From Tritonibacter multivorans (GTDB lineage Bacteria; Pseudomonadota; Alphaproteobacteria; Rhodobacterales; Rhodobacteraceae): a stretch of DNA of 64,000 bases. The notes beneath the pieces are model-generated. The model saw only the letters and a list, made by a program, of their open reading frames with translations. It searched no databases and was not told the origin of the DNA. Shown here piece by piece: positions 54,431 through 63,999 of the stretch. Location of the stretch: NCBI RefSeq assembly GCF_001458415.1, contig NZ_CYSD01000024.1:22-64021 (forward strand), given 5' to 3'. Position 1 is the stretch's first letter, and each line of letters begins with the position of its first letter. The position numbers and the translations under genes were made by a program.

Positions 54431-54676
54431 ATGGACCTCACAGCACGAACGGCCGAGCAGATCGGCGAGGCACTCCGCCGGACGCGCAAAGCGCGCGGCT
54501 GGACCCAAAGCGATATCAGCGCGCGCACGAATTTGCGCGTCGCGACGATTTCGTCGCTCGAGAATGGCGACGCGGGAACCAAGCTCGCCACTGTGCTCGC
54601 TGTCATGGCGGCTCTTGGGCTTGAGTTCCGAATGGTGGAGCGCGGTGGCTCGCTTGAGATCGAGGATATCTTCTGA
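54431..54676 (+). CDS. hipB: HipB-type antitoxin / transcriptional repressor
   Basis: An 81-residue Xre-family helix-turn-helix protein (EALRRTRKARGWTQSDISARTNLRVATISSLENGDAGTKLATVLAVMAALGLEFRMVERG). It pairs with the HipA kinase and represses its own operon via three upstream operators. The ATG at 54431 follows AAAAGGAG; a longer frame from 54380 runs through the operators. Its stop overlaps the hipA start (TGATG), so expression is coupled. Confidence 0.9.
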   Translation: MDLTARTAEQIGEALRRTRKARGWTQSDISARTNLRVATISSLENGDAGTKLATVLAVMAALGLEFRMVERGGSLEIEDIF

Positions 54677-55968
54677 TGGCGAAACGCGGGCGTAGCGGCA
54701 CTATGCAGGTGCTTCTAAATGGAAGGCTGGTGGGGGCTTTGCGTCTTGCAGGCTCAGGCGCAATCAACTTCACCTATGATCCGGACTGGCTGTCGTGGCA
54801 ACACGCCATGCCCATCTCGCTTTCGCTGCCTTTGCGCGAAGAGGCGCACCAAGGTGGTCCTGTCATTGCCTATCTTGAAAATCTGCTGCCGGACAATCAG
54901 GCGATACGTGAGCGCGTAGCCGCTCGGGTGCGTGCAGGCGGTACGGACGCCTGGCACATGCTGGAGAAAATCGGGCGCGATTGCGTAGGGGCCTTGCAGT
55001 TCGTCTCTGGTGAGGTCCCAGAGGATGGCACACTCGAGGGAGAGCCCGTGTCTGAGGCGCAGATTGCCGATATGCTGCGCAACCTCGCGAGCGCTCCGCT
55101 AGGCTTGGACGAGGAAGACGACTTCCGCATTTCCATCGCAGGGGCGCAGGAGAAAACGGCGCTTCTGCGCCATGAGGGCGCGTGGATCCGTCCATCGGGG
55201 CTCACCCCAACGACCCATATCCTCAAGACTCAGCTAGGTGTTTTACCCGCAGGGATTGATCTATCCGACAGCGTTGAAAACGAGTATTTCTGCATGAGCT
55301 TTTGCCGCGCCATGGGCATGGATGTGGCGGAGGTCGAGATTGCCGACTTCGAAGACGTGCGAAGCCTTGTCGTGACGCGGTTCGATAGGCGCTGGACCAA
55401 GGATGGCCGATTGATCCGCCTCCCGCAGGAAGACTTTTGTCAGGCGCTATCGGTCCCACCCAGTCAAAAATACCAAATGGATGGCGGGCCAGGGATCACC
55501 GAAGGGGTCGAGTTGCTGAAGGGCAGTGATGATCCCGAGCTGGATCAGCGCGCCTTCTTCCGCGCGCAGGTGCTGTTTTGGCTCCTGGGAGCGACGGATG
55601 GGCACGCCAAGAATTTCAGCATCGCTTTGCGCCCTGGTGGTTTCCGTATGACCCCGCTTTACGATGTGCTGAGTGCCCAAAAAGCAGTGGATGACAGTCA
55701 AATTCGCCAAAACCGGATGCGCCTCGCAATGGCGGTCGACGGGCACTATCGGATCAATGAGGTGGTGCCTCGCCATTTCCTGCAGGCAGCGAAGGCGGCA
55801 GGTTTTGGTGTCGCGCTGGCCGAAGAGATCTTGTCGGACATTGCGACAGAGCTTGAACCTGCCATGGACAAGACACTCGCAGGCTTGCCGGATGGGTTCC
55901 CACAGTCATTGGCCGAAGCCATTGTTGCTGGCGCAAGACGTCGCGCAGCTGCCTTTTGCGCCGTATGA
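54676..55968 (+). CDS. hipA: HipA toxin, serine/threonine-protein kinase
   Basis: A 430-residue HipA-family kinase. The N-terminal Couple_hipA region (QVLLNGRLVGALRLAGSGAINFTYDPDWL) leads to the HipA_C kinase core: the DFRISIAGAQEKTALL phosphate loop, THILKTQ with the ATP-binding Lys, and the ATDGHAKNFSIAL catalytic loop (Asp308). The metal-binding PLYDVLSAQ follows. In E. coli, HipA phosphorylates glutamyl-tRNA synthetase; the target here is unknown. All key residues are present, so it is likely active unless bound by HipB. The stop codon lies inside the first of two 27-bp-spaced palindromes. Confidence 0.92.
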   Translation: MAKRGRSGTMQVLLNGRLVGALRLAGSGAINFTYDPDWLSWQHAMPISLSLPLREEAHQGGPVIAYLENLLPDNQAIRERVAARVRAGGTDAWHMLEKIGRDCVGALQFVSGEVPEDGTLEGEPVSEAQIADMLRNLASAPLGLDEEDDFRISIAGAQEKTALLRHEGAWIRPSGLTPTTHILKTQLGVLPAGIDLSDSVENEYFCMSFCRAMGMDVAEVEIADFEDVRSLVVTRFDRRWTKDGRLIRLPQEDFCQALSVPPSQKYQMDGGPGITEGVELLKGSDDPELDQRAFFRAQVLFWLLGATDGHAKNFSIALRPGGFRMTPLYDVLSAQKAVDDSQIRQNRMRLAMAVDGHYRINEVVPRHFLQAAKAAGFGVALAEEILSDIATELEPAMDKTLAGLPDGFPQSLAEAIVAGARRRAAAFCAV

Positions 55969-56008: not shown

Positions 56009-56289
56009 TTGACTGAGAGCAATCTGCAGGACCAGTGCAGTAGTTGCAGCATTCCGGGCCAACTTTGACGGACCAGCCCAGAGATTGATGGCCGAACTCA
56101 GATCCTCAATGCCGTGTTTCTGATTGCTGAACATAAGCGGGCAGCCGTAGCAGACGCGGGGCAAGCCCCGCTTCAACAAGAAAATTCCCCTGCGCCAGCG
56201 CATTCCTCGCGAGGCAAGTTTCTCGCTGACAGCCCCTTGGTGCCAGCTTTGGTCATGTTCATCGAAACACTCAAAGTGAGGATCAAAAA
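56009..56289. other. gene-free stretch with a possible coding remnant
   Basis: About 280 bp. A plus-strand frame at 56021-56120 reads ICRTSAVVAAFRANFDGPAQ then RLMAELRSSMPCF and a stop, which looks like a C-terminal fragment of an unknown protein. A 7-bp hairpin GCGGGGC-AA-GCCCCGC lies at 56156-56171. The end holds the leader of the small protein gene. Confidence 0.35.
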
Positions 56290-56487
56290 ATGGCTACTCA
56301 AACTCTGAAACTGAACGTCAAATCCGGCGAAAAAGACGGCAAGAACTTCTGGGACCGCTGCGGCGTCGTCTTCGTCAACACCGACGACAGCGGCAAGATC
56401 ACTTCGATCAACGTCAAGCACAGCATGTTCCCCGACGTCGACATGGTCGCCTTCCCTCGTCGCGATGAAGACCCGGTCATCGAGTGA
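56290..56487 (+). CDS. small conserved island protein, function unknown
   Basis: A 65-residue soluble, acidic protein (MATQTLKLNVKSGEKDGKNF, then WDRCGVVFVNTDDSGKITSI and a PDVDMVAFPRRDEDP tail). It resembles small proteins found in integrative elements of Rhizobiales and Rhodobacterales, but I do not know a role. The strand pattern suggests a compact beta fold. Ribosome-binding site GAGGATC. It is convergent with the BREX-linked gene and ends in a GC hairpin. Confidence 0.75.
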   Translation: MATQTLKLNVKSGEKDGKNFWDRCGVVFVNTDDSGKITSINVKHSMFPDVDMVAFPRRDEDPVIE

Positions 56488-56492
56488 TCTTA

Positions 56493-56521
56493 GCGCCAGG
56501 GCGGGACTCCCGCTCTGGTGC
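56493..56521. terminator. GC hairpin between convergent genes
   Basis: The stem CCAGGGCGGGA with TCCCGCTCTGG (one mismatch) lies between the small protein gene and the minus-strand DUF262 gene. No T-run flanks it, so it is a tentative bidirectional terminator. Confidence 0.5.
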
Positions 56522-56548
56522 CCCGTTGCTCAAGGCTCTGGACTTTTC

Positions 56549-58678
56549 TCAGAAGCGTCCCTTGTTCCATTCATGCTCTTCCGCACGCGAAAGGGGCTGC
56601 GATGATCCTTCTTTGCGTACGAAGAACTCCTCCTTACCTTCGGAAATCACGTAAACGGGTTTGTTCGCCCTTGTGACCTCAACATGACAAATCTGTTTGT
56701 CGTCATAGGTGGGCCAGTTGAGTTTCCAGAGCTTCATAACGTCCTTGCCGAGGAACTTGTCGAAGATATTAGCAATGTGGAGTTGAAAGCCGTCCCGATC
56801 TTTCTTTGAAAGTGTGCCGCAGTCGAGTTCGAGGCCAATGGCATTCCCATGGTCATCTACACCAATGAAGAGGCTTCCACCGTCAGAATTCATGAACGCC
56901 GCAACTGTCTTGGCGACCACGTGCTCGAGCTTCTTGTTCACTTCGCCAGTACGCATGTCGTATCGCAGAGTGGATTTAAACTCTACCAGCTGGCCTTCCC
57001 CCTCGAGGATCATTTCGTGGATGGGATCGATCTGAGCAGGTGCCTCGGATGGTTCGATGCGCTTCAATATTTCGGCATAGAGAACTTCTGAGCGACGCTT
57101 CAGGAATGCAGTGAAATCGTCTTGAACAACTGAGGCATCATCCAACTCGATGAGATGGCTGCTCAGCGCGTGTTTCAATTCTGAGTTCTCATCTGCAAAA
57201 TCCGCTAGATAGACCGATGGGGCCTTTGCGCCGATCCGCTTCTTGTTCAGTTCGGCACTGACCAAAGTGATGTTGACAATCGAGTTGGCATAGGGGGTTT
57301 CTGCATCGCTGCCATGTTTGCGGACAAATGCCCTCGGAAAGAAATGGTGGTAGTTCTTACTGCTGGCGATCTTGAGATAGGAGTTATCCAGAAGCACTTT
57401 ACCGTTTGTGTCGAAATCTTTTGGTTCATGATATGCGAGAATGCACAGGATCGACTTGCAGATGGCGTTCCCGGTCGAGAAGTCTGTTTCACGAAGATCT
57501 TGAGCTGAATTGATGAAAAGTTTGAACTCGGGGTAAGCTGGCCGCTGGCCTGCTATGATTAGATCAACTTTCTTGATATCAGCCGCCAGCTTGGATTCAG
57601 TTGCCGATGAATACCGCAGCGACAAGGAAGAACGCCAGAAGAGCTCTTCCAGATATTTCCGTTGCTGCCCGCTGGGTGACTTGCCCGTTTTCAAGAAGAA
57701 GTAGGCAAAAGGCACGATAAGAGTGTCGTAGGGCAGAATTTGGGAAACAGGTATCCGCAATACTGTTCGGAAGTGATCGATGGTCTTCTCGATCGCAGAG
57801 ATGACATCATCCCACCTTGCAATGATGTCCGCCTTGTCCAGGCCAAGGATCGTCTTTCGCTTGCACTCCTTCGACTCGCTTATGACGAGGCTCAGGATTT
57901 GCAGAAGAACAGAGGGAGAAATGTTCTCATACTTGCTGTCATTAAGTTTTTTCTGGAACTTCTCCCAACGGGCCTGCATGTCGAAATCAGCGGCTTCGTC
58001 GTAGGTCTTGGCCGACATAATTTCGAAAAGCGTGAGAACCTTTCCCCCTGTATTTATTCGAGTAAACACCTCAATGGCGGACTCGATATCGTTCTGCCGA
58101 AGGGTGACGGTTGAGAACGCATAGGTCTTAAAGGCGCTGGAATAAGAACTGATCTGATTGATTTGTGGTTTCTCAAAACCACGCTGTTCTAGTTCATTGC
58201 CCATCTGGTAATCAAAGTTCAGAACGTCATGCAGAGGTATGAAAACCTCCGTCTCGTCTTTCACGGTGACGATGTCCTTTTCCTTCTCCTCGAGGTTCTC
58301 TTCCAGGTTCACGACGATGTCTTTGTAGTCGGTCACCTTTTTCTCGGTGGGTTTTCTGATCTGCGCACCAAGATAAGCCGCGAAGAGGGAAGTGATGCGT
58401 TGCTGCCCATCAAGGACATACTGAACATTGCGCCCTATGGGCGTCTCGGGTAGGTCAAAGCCACCAATGTTTTTTATATCATTGATGCGTTGATCCGTTT
58501 CCCAAAGGATGAAGGTCCCGATGGGATAGCCTTTAAGGATCGAGTCCAGAAGCTTCGCAGTTGCCTTCAAGTCCCAGACGAAATCCCGTTGGAACTTGGG
58601 TACTTTGATGATGCCTTTTTTGACGTCCGAGATCAGGTCGTCGTATGTCTTCGAATCTGGCTTTGGCTGGTTATTCAT
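56549..58678 (-). CDS. BREX-associated DUF262-DUF1524-AlbA_2 fusion, putative type IV restriction/defence protein
   Basis: A 709-residue fusion at the downstream end of the BREX operon. Residues ~10-230 are DUF262 with the DGQQRIT motif (90-96), as in the GmrS part of type IV restriction enzymes. Residues ~400-540 resemble DUF1524 (GmrD) with the His-Me nuclease motif NYHHFFPRAF (442-451) and the following Asn in NSIVNITLVSAELNKKRIG (Asn469). Residues ~555-700 are an AlbA_2 (Schlafen-type) domain: EFKST at 566-570, FMNSDGGSLFIGVDD at 595-609, and FFVRKEGSS near the end. GmrSD-like BrxU occurs in some BREX loci. The added AlbA_2 domain is unusual. Probable role: recognition and cleavage of modified or foreign DNA. 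The gap of 189 nt after brxL suggests its own promoter. Confidence 0.85.
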   Translation of the reverse strand: MNNQPKPDSKTYDDLISDVKKGIIKVPKFQRDFVWDLKATAKLLDSILKGYPIGTFILWETDQRINDIKNIGGFDLPETPIGRNVQYVLDGQQRITSLFAAYLGAQIRKPTEKKVTDYKDIVVNLEENLEEKEKDIVTVKDETEVFIPLHDVLNFDYQMGNELEQRGFEKPQINQISSYSSAFKTYAFSTVTLRQNDIESAIEVFTRINTGGKVLTLFEIMSAKTYDEAADFDMQARWEKFQKKLNDSKYENISPSVLLQILSLVISESKECKRKTILGLDKADIIARWDDVISAIEKTIDHFRTVLRIPVSQILPYDTLIVPFAYFFLKTGKSPSGQQRKYLEELFWRSSLSLRYSSATESKLAADIKKVDLIIAGQRPAYPEFKLFINSAQDLRETDFSTGNAICKSILCILAYHEPKDFDTNGKVLLDNSYLKIASSKNYHHFFPRAFVRKHGSDAETPYANSIVNITLVSAELNKKRIGAKAPSVYLADFADENSELKHALSSHLIELDDASVVQDDFTAFLKRRSEVLYAEILKRIEPSEAPAQIDPIHEMILEGEGQLVEFKSTLRYDMRTGEVNKKLEHVVAKTVAAFMNSDGGSLFIGVDDHGNAIGLELDCGTLSKKDRDGFQLHIANIFDKFLGKDVMKLWKLNWPTYDDKQICHVEVTRANKPVYVISEGKEEFFVRKEGSSQPLSRAEEHEWNKGRF

Positions 58679-58867
58679 TCGTTCGTCCGTCTAATTTCTG
58701 CGCATCTGCAATTTTGGTTCGTTCGCAAGCCGTTCCTGCAAATCTCCGTGCTTGCGCAGGTTCAAGTCAGAAAAACGCTTCTGGGACAGGCGGGACAAGC
58801 GGTTTTGGTTCAAATCAACGCGGAACATGGCTTTGCTCTTTTCTGAAATATCTACTCAGTTTCACCG
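58679..58867. other. intergenic region between brxL and the DUF262 fusion
   Basis: This 189-bp gap, longer than the others in this operon (9 nt or overlaps), may carry a separate promoter for the fusion gene on the minus strand. No gene is seen. Confidence 0.45.
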
Positions 58868-60943
58868 TTAGTCTTGCCGCACATAGGTCACATAGAAGTT
58901 CTTCAGCATGCGATGCTCTTGCAGGCGGTCGCCTAGGCTGAACCCGTCACGTCGCATAGGCGCTTGGAAAATATCTAAACCGCGATCAAGTACGATTTTC
59001 CAGCCGGTATCGGTGACGATGTCTCTCGAGTGCGCGGTCCCTGAACCATCAAATGCCCAGGTGAAATCAACGCCCGAACCAATGCATGCCTCGGTAATGC
59101 TCTCCAGCAATTCGCGTTGCTTTTGCACGTTGCCGTCATCAGGCCCGGTGACAAGATGGATAGCCACTTGATCTTCCAACGCCTTGCGCTGAATCACCAT
59201 CTCGACGAATTCCATCATGTTCTTGATCTGGTAAAAATAGCGAATGTAGGGGTCTGTCACTACGATCCGCGATGCACCGTCCAGATAGGGCCCGAACAGT
59301 TTATCGTAGCTGATGCCTTTTCGGTTTTCGGCGAATACGTGGTGACCCTCTTCGGCGCGCGGCTTGGCGGGCGCTGAGGTCTCCGATGTGTCGCGCGGCT
59401 CATATTCGACTTCGATGATATCATCATCGACAGCATCAGTGGGTTGGTCCTGCTGCTTTGGGTCTAAGGCAGGCTTCAGATAGTAGAATTGGGGGAACTC
59501 TTGCTCTTCGACGGTCTGGACGCGCCGCTTTTCCCCATCAGAGCCAGTGTAGAAGAAGTCGACATCTGGATAAGTCGCATCGATCCGAAACAATTGGTCC
59601 TTAACGCGCTTTCGACTTTCAAGTGCGAGCTGCAAGAGCTCTTCAACGTCATCGGCTGTTTCATCTCCGGCAGGGAAAATCACCTTCAGGAAGCCCGAGA
59701 TGGTCTTGTAGACGGCGTCCCGATCACGGGTTGAAATCTTCTCGCTGACTTTGAAATGCAGGTCCGGCCGGTTGGAGAAGTCTTCTTGGCGCAAATGGCG
59801 AAGGATCTCGGCGAGGTAGTCGACAATGAACCCGTAGCCAGTGGTGAACATCTCGCCTCGGATCACGTCGATCTCCCAGCCAGGCAGATAAGCGTGGAGG
59901 CGGTCAATGAATGCAGAGTCATGGAACTGGGGTGGCAGGGCTTCGAACAAGTCGCTGTTCTTGAGCATGAATGGCACATTGTGGTCTGTGTTGCCGACAA
60001 ACGCGAAGCTCGCTTCTGCCCCCATGGGGTTAACCCCGCGCGAGAAGGTCTTGTTTGCCATGTAGTTTTTCATGATGTCGACCAGGGCCTTGTTCGCAGT
60101 TTTCTCGCGCCCTGCAAATTCATCAAAGGCCACCACATCCCAATATCCGACCAGTCCGATCCTCCCATTCGAGTTGTTTACAAACAGCTTCGGGATGGTC
60201 ACTTCGCCGCCGGAGATCAGCTGCCCGTGTGGCGAAAACTCAGAGTAGATATGCGATTTACCCGTTCCCTTTGGGCCAAGTTCGATGATGTTATAGTTTC
60301 GCTCCACGAAGGGGATCAGCCGCATCAGCTGCAAAAGCTTGCTGCGACGTCCGAAGGCTTCAGGATTGAAGCCAATTGACTGCATTAAGAGATCAATCCA
60401 CTCGTCTTTGGTAAATTGCGCGCGCGCCTCCTTGTACCCATCGTAATCGACCTTGGCGATCTGGATGGGTTTGATGGTCTCGAGCACCCACGGAGACGTT
60501 CGCGCGTCTTCGGAAAACTCGTATTGAACATCAGCAATACACCATACACCGGTCACAAGCAGCTTTGGATGCGCTTTGACCGTACCGCTGTCCACCGCAA
60601 CCTTTTTGATGCCCAAGTTGTCGAACGTGGCCTCGTAGCTGTCTGTTTTTTCGTTCAGCGAGACGCTGATTTGGTCGATGACTTTGTAGCGTCCCTTTTC
60701 CTTGATCGTGGATTGGATCAGTCCCGCTTCGCTTCTGTGAACGTAGTGCTTTCTGAGGATTTCTTTGACGGTTTCGATGCCGCTCTCGATTGATGCTTCG
60801 TCGTCAGTCGCACAGTACTGCCCAAGCAGGTATTCGAGGACATAGGTTGGAACGATTGCGTTGCCTTTGACCGCTTTCACAAGATCTTTGCGGACCACGT
60901 AGCCCGCGAAATGCTCGTTAATCTTTTCGTCGAGTGCGCTCAT
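58868..60943 (-). CDS. brxL: BREX system AAA+ protein BrxL with MITD1-like C-terminal domain
   Basis: A 691-residue BrxL-family protein, an essential part of type 1 BREX. The N-terminal region (1-180) is BrxL-specific (SALDEKINEHFAGYVVRKDL). The AAA+ core has Walker A LGPKGTGKS (222-230), Walker B VVAFDEFAG (270-278) and sensor-type FVGNTD (315-320). An acidic linker (~495-535) leads to a C-terminal domain (541-691) with KLFGPYLDGASRIVVTDPYI, AHSRDI and LDRGLDIFQ. This is the pattern of the MITD1 C-terminal (phospholipase D-like) domain. I see no GPSAG motif of a Lon S16 protease. It begins 9 nt after pglZ. Confidence 0.92.
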   Translation of the reverse strand: MSALDEKINEHFAGYVVRKDLVKAVKGNAIVPTYVLEYLLGQYCATDDEASIESGIETVKEILRKHYVHRSEAGLIQSTIKEKGRYKVIDQISVSLNEKTDSYEATFDNLGIKKVAVDSGTVKAHPKLLVTGVWCIADVQYEFSEDARTSPWVLETIKPIQIAKVDYDGYKEARAQFTKDEWIDLLMQSIGFNPEAFGRRSKLLQLMRLIPFVERNYNIIELGPKGTGKSHIYSEFSPHGQLISGGEVTIPKLFVNNSNGRIGLVGYWDVVAFDEFAGREKTANKALVDIMKNYMANKTFSRGVNPMGAEASFAFVGNTDHNVPFMLKNSDLFEALPPQFHDSAFIDRLHAYLPGWEIDVIRGEMFTTGYGFIVDYLAEILRHLRQEDFSNRPDLHFKVSEKISTRDRDAVYKTISGFLKVIFPAGDETADDVEELLQLALESRKRVKDQLFRIDATYPDVDFFYTGSDGEKRRVQTVEEQEFPQFYYLKPALDPKQQDQPTDAVDDDIIEVEYEPRDTSETSAPAKPRAEEGHHVFAENRKGISYDKLFGPYLDGASRIVVTDPYIRYFYQIKNMMEFVEMVIQRKALEDQVAIHLVTGPDDGNVQKQRELLESITEACIGSGVDFTWAFDGSGTAHSRDIVTDTGWKIVLDRGLDIFQAPMRRDGFSLGDRLQEHRMLKNFYVTYVRQD

Positions 60944-60952
60944 GATAGGTCC

Positions 60953-63448
60953 TTAAAAGTCGAAATCTGTCGATATGCCACGACGCAGTTGGAAACGGTG
61001 GCTTGTGTAATCTTCGAAGTGGCTCGTTTTGCCGATCCGTTCGCGAAGCTTGAGGAAGACGTCCTGGTTGTTGAACCGATCAGCATCGCGAGAAAGCAGG
61101 AACTTGATGGGCAGCTCCCGTTCGCGCGCATTTTGCGAGGTGTAGTCAAAGGTCAGCGGGTGCTCATCTGAAATGAGCGTGCCGTCCGAAGCGTAAATCC
61201 CAGCAAGAACATCACGTTGTTGCTGTTTCTCTGAAACCGGCTGCGTTTGATAGAGAGTGACCGCCGTTTGGCCGGAAGATATCAGGCTTTTTCCAGTTAC
61301 GATGATCTGCACTTCAACTTTTTCGACATCGGCTTCGCGTCGTTTACCAACGCGGAGTACGGGAACAATGACCTCTTGAAGCGTGGCCCCGCCATGCACA
61401 AACCGGCTTCCCGCCCCCTTGACGCGCATACGATTGATCGAATTGGGCAGTAGAACATCCAAGTTACCTGATAGACCCAGATTTGCGGGTGAGAACTTCT
61501 TCATTCCAGATGTCGCATCAAGGTCTCGCCCAATGATAAATCGACGATTTTTTACAAGGATTTCCGCACCAGCAGGAACCGCTACCGAAAAATCTGTCTC
61601 GTCCAACGCGCGGTGCTGATAGATGAAGCCGTGATCGGCCGTCACAAGAATGTTGGAAAAGTTGGCGGTTGTGAGCTTGCGGACTAGTTTGGTCAGATCT
61701 TCGACAGCGACTTCTGCAGCCTCTGTCACGCGTTCCTCGGTGGCGAGCTTGTCGCCAACGATGTCGATCCTGTTGTGATAGAGGTAGAGAATGTCATGAT
61801 CGCGGAAAACCTCTTTTCCGTCGTCCGCCTTCAAGCTCATGAAATCATCGGCCTTCATGGCTTTGACACGGTCTCCGGCACGCCCCATGCCCAGCACCTT
61901 TTCGCGGTTTGCGGTTCCCTGAGTAGGCAAGCCAAACGAAGATACGTTTCCGTCCTCCGACAGCTCCAGATCCTTGTTCGGTAAGAGCGCAGCCATGCCG
62001 AGTTGCGTGTAGCTGGGCAAAGCAGAAATCATCGGCTTTAGATCGGCGTCGAACCGGTTCAGTTTACGGATCTGGCGCAGGGCTTCTTCCGCAACCTCAT
62101 AGCGCAATGCGTCTGAGATGATCACCACCACCTTCTGATCGCGGCGGCGGAATTCGGCGGCTTGGTCCATATAGAAATCGGTCTGATGCGCAAATCCCGA
62201 TATCTTCCAATCGCTCAGTCCAGCGATCTGATCTTGCCAGGCGTCATTGACGGCAGACAGGAAGTTGGTCGTGTAGCGGTTCTCTACGCTTTCGAACAGC
62301 GCGCTAAGCAGCGAGGCCTGACCACTCTTTTGCATATGATAGATGAATTTGCGGTAGAGCTGGTCGATCTTGTACCAGTGCGAAACATAGCGCTTCACCC
62401 CCTCTGCGGGGGAGGTCATGGTCAGGTTCGCTTCAGCCAACGCCTGCTGGAATTCTGTGGCATAGCCGATGGCTTGATAAATATCCTCATAGGTAGGGTA
62501 CCAATGGCTTTGCCGCCGCTCTCGCACGGTCTTCAGCACCTCGGCTGATGAGACCGTTTGGCTTGCCATCTCACGCACCAGAGAGCGGATGATCTGCCGG
62601 TCGATCTCTTCGAAGTGATCAATGGCACGCAGGGCCTTGATGTCGCGCTCTTGCACGTCTTCAGGGATCCGTAGGATGTCCTGGTACTTCCCACTCAGCG
62701 TTTCAAACGCCTTCGCCCCCAGCCGGTTGTTCTTCCAGCGGCGGAAGACAAGAAGCGCTTCGCCGTTCAGCTTGCCATCTTCGCCCAAGGCGCGGGCATA
62801 GCAGGACTGGAACAGGGTGATCGCGAAGTCCTCGAAATCTGGCGCATCGCTGACATAGCCATAGGCATTCTCAACCTGCTTCCAGAAGAACTCTGTCAGA
62901 CCGGACCGCTCCATCAGGCGCATGGCGTCGTCGCGCTCGTCCGCGAGCTCGGCCAGCAGCTCCTCGATCACCGTGTCCAAGGCTCCCTCGGCCCCGGCGC
63001 AGACGGCCAACATGCGGCGCAGCACATCGGTCTTCGTGTCCGACGGCGTGAGCATCTGCTTCAGCGCCTCGATGCGGCCCTTGGCGCGGTAGAACTCCAT
63101 ATGGTCGCGCACCACGTCCTCGAACTGCAGCGGCAGGCCCAGTTCAGACAGCCAGATCGCCGCTTGGTCGGCCTTGAAGACACCGCAGGCGAAATAGAGA
63201 TCCAGTAGCCAGTTGTCGGCCATCTCGGGCGCGGGGCCGTCGTGGAACACCAGAAACTTCTGTTTCGGTTCTTGCCGCAGCATCCGGTACTTCAGGCCGA
63301 ACTCGTTATTCGCGATCTCGACCTTTTCCACATCCGGTAGATCCACAGCGTCATATTCGGCCCGCATGTCGCGCGCGGCGTCGTACCAGAAGACGATCCG
63401 GTGATCGATGAACAGCCGCTCAAGGCCTGCCTTGATCCGGTCCGTCAT
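60953..63448 (-). CDS. pglZ: BREX-1 system phosphatase PglZ, type A
   Basis: An 831-residue protein of the alkaline-phosphatase superfamily and the signature protein of BREX. The N-terminal ~400 residues are the BREX-1 helical region (MTDRIKAGLERLFIDHRIVFWYD). The metallo-phosphatase core has VVVIISDALRYEVAEEA with Asp446, SALPSYTQLGMAAL (476-489), HNRIDIVGD (558-566) and VTADHGFIY (602-610). All metal-site motifs are intact. Its start overlaps the pglX stop (ATGA), and brxL follows after 9 nt, so the three genes form an operon. BREX-1 PglZ is needed for host methylation and phage exclusion in known systems. Confidence 0.95.
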   Translation of the reverse strand: MTDRIKAGLERLFIDHRIVFWYDAARDMRAEYDAVDLPDVEKVEIANNEFGLKYRMLRQEPKQKFLVFHDGPAPEMADNWLLDLYFACGVFKADQAAIWLSELGLPLQFEDVVRDHMEFYRAKGRIEALKQMLTPSDTKTDVLRRMLAVCAGAEGALDTVIEELLAELADERDDAMRLMERSGLTEFFWKQVENAYGYVSDAPDFEDFAITLFQSCYARALGEDGKLNGEALLVFRRWKNNRLGAKAFETLSGKYQDILRIPEDVQERDIKALRAIDHFEEIDRQIIRSLVREMASQTVSSAEVLKTVRERRQSHWYPTYEDIYQAIGYATEFQQALAEANLTMTSPAEGVKRYVSHWYKIDQLYRKFIYHMQKSGQASLLSALFESVENRYTTNFLSAVNDAWQDQIAGLSDWKISGFAHQTDFYMDQAAEFRRRDQKVVVIISDALRYEVAEEALRQIRKLNRFDADLKPMISALPSYTQLGMAALLPNKDLELSEDGNVSSFGLPTQGTANREKVLGMGRAGDRVKAMKADDFMSLKADDGKEVFRDHDILYLYHNRIDIVGDKLATEERVTEAAEVAVEDLTKLVRKLTTANFSNILVTADHGFIYQHRALDETDFSVAVPAGAEILVKNRRFIIGRDLDATSGMKKFSPANLGLSGNLDVLLPNSINRMRVKGAGSRFVHGGATLQEVIVPVLRVGKRREADVEKVEVQIIVTGKSLISSGQTAVTLYQTQPVSEKQQQRDVLAGIYASDGTLISDEHPLTFDYTSQNARERELPIKFLLSRDADRFNNQDVFLKLRERIGKTSHFEDYTSHRFQLRRGISTDFDF

Positions 63449-63999
63449 GACAGCCCCGCGATCTTCTTCAGGGCAGACCCGAACAGCGGATAGTTCGCCT
63501 TCACCCCGTCATCCAGATCGATCTCAATTTTCCGCTGCGCGAGTGGGAAGATCACCTCGCGTTCCCATTCATTCAGTTCGTTGATCTGCTTGGACAATAC
63601 GCTGACTTTTTTCAGTGCCTTTGTTTGGTTAGCTTTGGTCTCAGTCGGATCATCAGACCTTTTTTGTTCATTCACGCGTTCACCCTCCAGCTTGGTGATG
63701 AACTCGCGCAGGTAGTCATTCAGCAGCACCGAGACCGTGTCGCTTTGATACCGGTGCATGTAGATCAGGGCGTTGAACGTGCCCTTGGGGCTGGAGAACA
63801 TCCAGTAGATCGGGCGCTTTTTGTAGCGCTTCACGTGATCGGCGTAGAAATCCTTGGTGAAATACTTGCGGATTTCTTTGCCGAGCGCGTCCTCGATATA
63901 GCGCAGGTTCTCGCGAAAATGCGCTTCGCCGAAGGTCACGCGCAGGAACAGGCGGAAGCGTTCGGTGATGTCGTCGGGGAACCAGTTCTCGTCCAGCAC
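63445..63999 (-). CDS. pglX: BREX-1 adenine-specific DNA methyltransferase PglX, C-terminal part (gene continues past the right edge)
   Basis: Only the last 184 codons are in the window. The visible part matches the PglX C-terminal specificity and tail region: WFPDDITERFRLFLRVTFGE, FTKDFYADHVKRYKKRPIYWMFSSPKGTFNALIYMHRYQ, and the VLSKQINELNEWEREVIFPLAQRKIEIDLDDGVKANYPLFGSALKKI end. Full PglX is ~1,200 residues and methylates the non-palindromic BREX motif at adenine. The methyltransferase motifs are outside the window. The truncation is by the window edge, not by mutation. Confidence 0.92.
   Translation of the reverse strand: MLDENWFPDDITERFRLFLRVTFGEAHFRENLRYIEDALGKEIRKYFTKDFYADHVKRYKKRPIYWMFSSPKGTFNALIYMHRYQSDTVSVLLNDYLREFITKLEGERVNEQKRSDDPTETKANQTKALKKVSVLSKQINELNEWEREVIFPLAQRKIEIDLDDGVKANYPLFGSALKKIAGLS

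Follow-up and report, generated by a model that had tools for sequence, protein, structure and literature searches.

This analysis concerns a gene that closes a BREX-1 defense operon of Tritonibacter multivorans (Rhodobacteraceae), located on a 64,000-nucleotide stretch of contig NZ_CYSD01000024.1 (the window, to which all coordinates without another label refer). The gene encodes a single protein chain of 709 amino acids in which a DUF262–DUF1524 enzyme of the GmrSD kind is followed by a Schlafen-like AlbA_2 domain, and close copies of it stand behind several different defense systems. Sequence comparison suggests that the product is probably a stand-alone type IV (modification-dependent) effector of the GmrSD/BrxU kind, equipped with a Schlafen-like AlbA_2 module and traded between modification-based systems. 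The gene and its domains are as follows.

56549..58678, minus strand: GmrSD–AlbA_2 fusion gene, 709 amino acids, ATG start, exact open reading frame (ORF), seven intact copies compared
58007..58639, minus strand: GmrSD_N / DUF262 NTPase-like domain, residues 14–224 (Pfam E 4.9e-31)
57140..57502, minus strand: GmrSD_C / DUF1524 His-Me nuclease domain, residues 393–513 (Pfam E 0.0012, sub-threshold)
56591..56998, minus strand: SLFN_AlbA_2 domain, residues 561–696 (Pfam E 1e-16)

The N-terminus (MNNQPKPDSKTY) is identical across the seven intact copies, that of the window among them. The Pfam scan bears out the first-pass annotation in placing all three domains on one chain, with GmrSD_C scoring 19.2 bits in the window protein against a cut-off of 23. 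This sub-threshold call is accepted because the profile match to BrxU spans residues 12–537 and the fold matches BrxU as well. The GmrSD profile, built from 20 rows (the window protein, five close copies, and 14 relatives from viral contigs), matches BrxU (7p9k) with an E-value of 3.2e-41 over those residues, followed more weakly by 9jfl, two further DUF262 entries, and SspE (6jiv). AlphaFold2 models the full-length protein with confidence across most of residues 1–540, and the top three Foldseek matches of this model are BrxU chains (best 7p9k, E 3.8e-14, probability 1.00, whole-model template modeling scores of 0.34/0.41, fold-aligned residues 16% identical); the fourth is 9jfl, an entry titled DndBCDE-DndI. 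These matches agree with the expectation that residues 400–540 fold as a His-Me nuclease. The best PADLOC match is PDC-M55C (E 4.6e-62, residues 4–537), and HEC-05 is also matched (E 2.1e-36, residues 10–542). These closest PADLOC families cover the GmrSD part alone and stop short of the AlbA_2 domain; HEC-05 is BrxU (PMC11411939; papers are cited by PMC number, each on the basis of the excerpts available).

In an 11-row alignment, the DUF262 motifs Q30 R31, D90-G-Q-Q-R94, and F205/N209 (FxxxN) are invariant, as are H445, N469, N478, and P448 of the His-Me domain, while H444 is nearly so. The nuclease residues that had been reported as present are thus kept, and the positions given earlier for DGQQRIT (90–96), HHFFP (444–448), and N469 are all correct. 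The HHFFP region aligns in the profile match with the DHIYP region of BrxU. Because that motif carries D474 and H475 (PMC8565348), H445 is the expected catalytic histidine, and H444 sits in place of the BrxU acid.

The AlbA_2 domain had been placed at residues 566–609; its presence stands, but Pfam makes it longer (561–696). A nine-row AlbA_2 profile matches SLFN12 (E 5.5e-11), then SLFN14, SLFN8, SLFN11, and SLFN5, with weaker matches to three other entries, one of them named CbCash. In alignment to SLFN11, E561, E566, and D609 fall on the E-E-D site, and all three are invariant in the nine rows of alignment A2 (seven GmrSD proteins and two Type ISP proteins). The RNase site of rSLFN13 consists of E205, E210, and D248, where each change cut tRNA cleavage, the first two fully (PMC5862951); in SAMD9L, changing two of the three matching residues together relieved translation shut-off and restriction of human immunodeficiency virus (PMC11221667). 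A wider AlbA_2 set of 22 rows has D at the third position in 20 and N in two, and D is present in each of the 13 rows fused to GmrSD; the set was picked by a pattern needing both glutamates, whose own 22/22 count is not used as evidence. Given the kept E-E-D site, an RNase role for AlbA_2 would be about as likely as one in sensing or regulation.

The latter role follows the suggestion of the first-pass annotation. In this reading, AlbA_2 would be a non-catalytic module that binds nucleic acid or dimerizes and so tethers or regulates the GmrSD nuclease. It is a credible alternative, though less likely than not. On prokaryotic Argonautes, AlbA_2 is regarded as a DNA-binding domain (PMC6299218), the AlbA2 region of SAMD9 binds DNA (PMC11221667), and the module also occurs on DNA-recognizing proteins, such as Type ISP enzymes and a protein with a sub-threshold Methylase_S match. 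The N found at the third triad position in two of the 22 rows points the same way. However, a triad without variation in A2, with its D in every GmrSD-fused row, goes beyond what mere binding should require.

One scan of genome contigs returned eight loci with close relatives of the fusion gene, which with the window makes nine copies, all in Rhodobacteraceae (compared loci carry L numbers and genomes G numbers). Seven of the eight loci span residues 1–709 at 88–100% amino acid identity, and L030 is cut after 69 residues by a contig end. Five copies follow BREX-1 genes, with BrxL and PglZ upstream (window, L023, L024, L026, and L030). Neither BrxL nor PglZ was found in the fetched flanks of the other four (L025, L027, L028, and L029), in a search that sought only these two genes, on a short contig in the case of L025, and those genomes may carry BREX elsewhere. 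Three of the four stand behind other systems, named here by their best PADLOC matches, which are predicted systems. Upstream of L027 lie a DrmMI-like methyltransferase, an HNH protein, and an 1818-amino acid helicase (PDC-S37/Hhe); L028 has DruE-like and DpdE/DrmD-like helicases, a DrmMI-like methyltransferase, and an HNH protein; L029 has a IIG C-terminal piece, a 2133-amino acid DruE-like protein, and a NERD/UvrD protein. The fourth copy, in L025, follows a 415-amino acid HsdR-like fragment.

Within the family sample, 13 of 394 Rhodobacteraceae genomes match the fusion protein at E 1e-20: four over the full length (that of the window included), two as AlbA_2 remnants (G426 and G440), two through AlbA_2 on Type ISP proteins (G280 and G217), and five partially or without AlbA_2 in the match. 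At E 1e-15, the AlbA_2 profile has matches in 3 of the 385 genomes sampled from the class and in 11 of the 398 from the phylum, the window's counted in each, shares that are biased by the building of the profile from GmrSD and Type ISP rows. Among the 12 AlbA_2 loci other than the window, five are GmrSD fusions (L054, L056, L057, L061, and L062); GmrSD_N lies below the cut-off in the cut loci L061 and L062, and in L069 and L070, which are longer stretches of these two loci, tblastn covers residues 11–709. In L057 (longer stretch L067), HsdS and HsdR of a Type I restriction–modification operon flank the relative. Other loci carry AlbA_2 in different settings: L063 with a Methylase_S match just under the cut-off; L055 with AlbA_2 alone among Pfam families, grouping with L063 in the AlbA_2 tree; L058 without another Pfam family; and L059, L060, and L064 with hydrophobic N-termini by eye (L064 outside the Pfam scan). 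In L065, a separate AlbA_2 ORF directly follows an ORF with DGKQR-like and HHIYP motifs by eye, the scanned part of which has no Pfam match. Type ISP restriction–modification proteins also carry an AlbA_2 of this kind at their C-terminus (L043 1109–5119 and L046 8785–10353), and GmrSD_N with AlbA_2 occurs on plasmid records of haloarchaea (L048 and L049) and Sinorhizobium (L050). Among viral contigs, a GmrSD relative was found at 32 loci, and AlbA_2 gave one short match; AlbA_2 was not seen in the 16 viral GmrSD loci whose ORF was read out, which was done without a Pfam scan. The earlier view of the fusion as a non-standard form is correct in that it is uncommon, but it is no one-off, since the three-domain form is also present in other Proteobacteria and in haloarchaea and recurs in two other GmrSD branches of the tree, haloarchaea and Sinorhizobium among them.

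Several side observations touch these forms. L059, L060, and L074 encode short proteins that share this AlbA_2 type and, by eye, have hydrophobic N-termini; they are possibly a membrane-bound form. In L109 (2824–5526), a single stop codon separates an AlbA_2 ORF from a preceding ORF in the same frame that carries DGKQR-like and HHIYP motifs, an arrangement that may be a two-gene form or a broken fusion. AlbA_2 remnants of the fusion gene (90% and 82% at the amino acid level) lie at other sites in two Rhodobacteraceae genomes (L034 1498–2061 and L036 1501–1767). A viral-contig GmrSD protein of 803 amino acids (L077 3224–5635) has a different C-terminal extension beyond residue ~540.

On the tree of the GmrSD part, the AlbA_2-fused label needs three changes, and the starred branches force three. 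Window and L028 form a sister pair there (98/91, starred), and L026 and L029 form another (94/88, not starred), with different systems upstream within each pair. On the tree of the AlbA_2 part, the GmrSD label needs four changes, three of them forced. By these sequences, AlbA_2 must have been gained or lost at least three times on the tree; long branches are flagged, some forks are open, and three changes may equal one gain plus two losses. For this reason it is possible, if doubtful, that AlbA_2 joined GmrSD a single time long ago and was then repeatedly lost, the fusion having no special meaning. Such a history is opposed by the AlbA_2 tree, which splits the GmrSD-linked rows and sets them beside non-GmrSD rows (L058; L055/L063), with at least three changes.

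The borders of the exchanged unit emerge from DNA comparison of the window with other copies.

56525..58706, minus strand: shuffled unit, 95.2% DNA identity to L028, in which a different defense system lies upstream
56091..56518, no strand assigned: downstream flank common to window and L028 (95.3%), found within longer matches in L023 (nearly all of it) and L025
53470..54334, no strand assigned: second downstream flank block, 92.0% in L028, found in L023 within a 1184-bp match (95.4%)

The likeness of window and L028 runs from 28 bp before the ORF to ~25 bp after it, and the two are unrelated upstream. In L028, the window flank resumes after ~3.1 kb holding a 925-amino acid UvrD-like gene. 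L026 and L029 are 94.9% identical in DNA over ~2.7 kb and show no relation further upstream. The window-type downstream flank was not seen in the compared stretch of L024, L026, L027, or L029. Because window, L023, L025, and L028 share the downstream blocks, part of the pattern is, judging from these alignments, an exchange of systems within one mobile-element slot.

The whole gene has ratios of nonsynonymous to synonymous substitution (dN/dS) of 0.019 for window/L028 and 0.041 for each of window/L025, L026/L029, and L026/L027, the ratio being computable in four of eight pairs, with saturated synonymous sites in the other four. For AlbA_2 alone, the four computable pairs give 0.013–0.086. All three domains are under purifying selection. 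A decaying passenger gene is unlikely in view of the whole-gene range of 0.019–0.041 in these four pairs.

A more specific version of the passenger idea regards the gene as the conserved right-hand anchor of one mobile-element slot, with upstream systems swapped by recombination and no functional coupling. The common downstream flanks of window, L023, L025, and L028, together with their differing upstream genes, fit this account. However, L026, L027, and L029 lack that flank and also stand directly behind defense operons, and in L026 and L029 the gene overlaps a small upstream ORF by 4 bp. The dN/dS values far below 1 argue for function, not for coupling. Overall, the slot alone is a rather unlikely explanation.

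The operon in front of the window copy is a full BREX-1 set: a WYL protein, BrxA, BrxB, BrxC, an AAA_21 ATPase, a HEC-02B protein, PglX, PglZ, and BrxL. Most of PglX and the BREX genes preceding it lie on the same contig beyond the window edge. The remaining features are as follows.

58691..58828, minus strand: 45-codon ORF remnant upstream of the fusion gene, related to the start of the upstream ORF in L026/L029/L030
58868..60943, minus strand: BrxL with C-terminal PLD-like (MIT_C) domain (Pfam/PADLOC)
60953..63448, minus strand: PglZ (BREX-1 type A) (Pfam/PADLOC)
63445..63999, minus strand: PglX, C-terminal portion within the window

As had been proposed, the fusion gene is the last of the operon, on the same strand and 189 bp past BrxL. 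However, the link to BREX holds only in part: five of the nine close copies follow BREX-1, neither BrxL nor PglZ was found in the fetched flanks of the other four, and BREX-1 loci without the gene also occur. The PglZ type of the window occurs in 13 of 388 family genomes (this sample and that of 394 may differ by a few genomes), of which three (G000, G250, and G317) are among the full-length fusion matches. The gene was not found in the fetched stretch of seven further BREX-1 loci (L115–L121), which belong to the other ten PglZ genomes. With 3 of 13 genomes and none of seven loci, it is no general component of BREX-1, and these counts do not support an unqualified assignment of the gene to BREX. 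The BREX of L115 is 90.6% identical in DNA to that of the window, and the likeness ends 8 bp past the BrxL stop. Between window and L023, PglX is 67% identical, compared with 97.5% for PglZ, 98.4% for BrxL, and 99.6% for the fusion protein. Since PglX differs while the fusion protein was kept, the latter need not match one methylation motif.

It is improbable that the protein is a dedicated BREX-1 accessory acting with PglZ/BrxL or relying on BREX methylation: the five copies directly after BREX-1 genes (one of them the contig-end fragment of 69 residues), the precedent of BrxU (PMC8565348), and a relic in L028 speak for it, but this role is rejected as the general case on the four copies with neither BrxL nor PglZ in the fetched flanks and on BREX loci in whose fetched stretch the gene was not found, such as L115, and PglX differs where the fusion protein does not.

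The upstream ORF remnant of the window resembles the first ~38 residues of a 117–121-amino acid ORF directly upstream of the copies in L026, L029, and L030, and this small ORF matches the first 60 positions of PADLOC PDC-S11. At full size it produces the 4-bp overlap in L026 and L029 mentioned above. As a partner gene it was set aside, being only 45 codons long in the window and broken in L024; a full-length source was sought in L118 and not found there. A scan for sigma-70-like promoters over 56300–59100 gave 0 matches against 2.1 expected by chance, a result that is uninformative for the host's bacterial group.

Returning to the stand-alone effector, the DUF262 domain would bind nucleoside triphosphate (NTP) and sense modified foreign DNA, which the His-Me domain would then cut. 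The AlbA_2 domain would add a second nucleic-acid activity, most likely cleavage of RNA (tRNA) as a backup, or alternatively nucleic-acid binding or dimerization. The gene would move as a single-gene unit to the ends of different modification-based restriction operons, namely BREX-1, methyltransferase/helicase/HNH systems, and an IIG/DruE-like system, with a distant relative inside a Type I restriction–modification operon. In such positions it would act against phages that evade the main system through their modified DNA. The gene thus looks like an interchangeable add-on and not part of one system. DNA restriction is likely its main action, and an RNase backup by AlbA_2 is plausible. What the sequences show is the set of domains, their homology, the kept residues, purifying selection, the change of partner system, and a fusion present in several branches; the DNA target, nuclease activity, RNase activity, and phage protection are inferred. 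A more elaborate scheme is conceivable but rather speculative: one NTP switch would control both modification-sensing DNA cleavage and a tRNase of the Schlafen type, which would stop translation if restriction fails, and the chain would be a plug-in for many modification-based operons that arose repeatedly by the joining of GmrSD and AlbA_2 from separate pools.

Several observations weigh against the stand-alone effector or parts of it. In the nuclease half, the GmrSD_C Pfam match falls under the family cut-off, and H444 occupies the position of D474 in the DHIYP motif of BrxU. DUF262/DUF1524 proteins also respond to other cues, SspE sensing phosphorothioate (PMC10952713), and because of such relatives a modified cytosine as the target is only a guess. 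In the AlbA_2 half, proteins with hydrophobic N-termini also keep E-E-D, and for this reason the site does not prove RNase activity; the model of AlbA_2 alone has a mean confidence (pLDDT) of 44, and the full-length model is likewise of low confidence over this part. With regard to the exchange between systems, a 98-bp stretch just past the gene in L028 (12164–12261) is 75.5% identical to the end of the window brxL. It may be left over from a BREX-like gene or from a different protein with a tail of this kind, and because of it a BREX-like gene may once have stood in L028. The L024 copy has a stop at codon 17. Finally, the distant three-domain relatives L066 and L069 adjoin metabolic genes, although the fusion has not proved common and unlinked to defense, an outcome that the first-pass annotation had considered.

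GmrSD enzymes within other defense systems are already known. BrxU protects alone beside BREX (PMC8565348) and resembles the window protein in having DUF262 and DUF1524 in one chain adjoining BREX-1. It differs in its DHIYP motif, compared with HHFFP here, in the position of its gene between brxC and pglX, whereas the window gene follows brxL, and in that no AlbA_2 is described in the available part of that paper. TgvAB is a GmrSD-like pair embedded in a Type I restriction–modification operon (PMC11411939), which is likewise a GmrSD enzyme lodged in a modification-based operon and has the same motif set; unlike the fusion, it comprises two proteins, with no Schlafen domain in its description as excerpted. 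The same paper cites GmrSD-like genes embedded in Hma clusters. The DUF262 proteins of phosphorothioate systems, 9jfl (DndBCDE-DndI) and SspE (6jiv), are weaker profile matches, 9jfl also by fold, but they belong to other partner systems and match the GmrSD part only. Extra domains listed for GmrSD proteins are DUF4268, DUF4357, and DNA_binding_1 (PMC4619093). On the other side of the chain, mammalian SLFN13 and SAMD9L share the Schlafen/AlbA_2 domain with E-E-D.

A survey of BREX loci (PMC12839542) treats ParB-HNH GmrSD proteins and Schlafen RNases as separate BREX-linked effector classes. Its Schlafen RNases, listed as backup effectors, also have a Schlafen/AlbA_2 domain with E-E-D, but their fusion partners are a minimal histidine kinase and a winged helix-turn-helix domain, and a single chain with both ParB-HNH-type and Schlafen parts is not described in the excerpts of the survey. 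The window protein joins in one chain the two classes that the survey keeps apart, the "auxiliary" ParB-HNH DNases and the "backup" Schlafen RNases. By its sequence, it represents a new form of GmrSD protein that carries a Schlafen-like domain as its second module. A literature search, with preprints and most subscription papers outside its scope and with sources available in part, found neither a GmrSD chain with a Schlafen tail nor near-identical GmrSD copies behind several systems. The occurrence of nearly the same protein behind several different defense systems is a natural experiment, which makes it possible to test whether type IV enzymes need contact with the adjoining system and whether a DNA sensor can drive a Schlafen domain.

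Some further features of the BREX loci and their surroundings can be recorded. In the BREX operon of the window, BrxC and PglX enclose a 183-amino acid HEC-02B protein and a 395-amino acid AAA_21 ATPase (L002 4967–6702). Compared with L023, the pattern at the PglX gene (L002 1467–4967) resembles an exchange confined to the specificity gene. In L118 (3011–5118), BrxL is split into two ORFs. Downstream of the fusion gene, on the opposite strand, the window carries a HipA-family gene (54676–55968).

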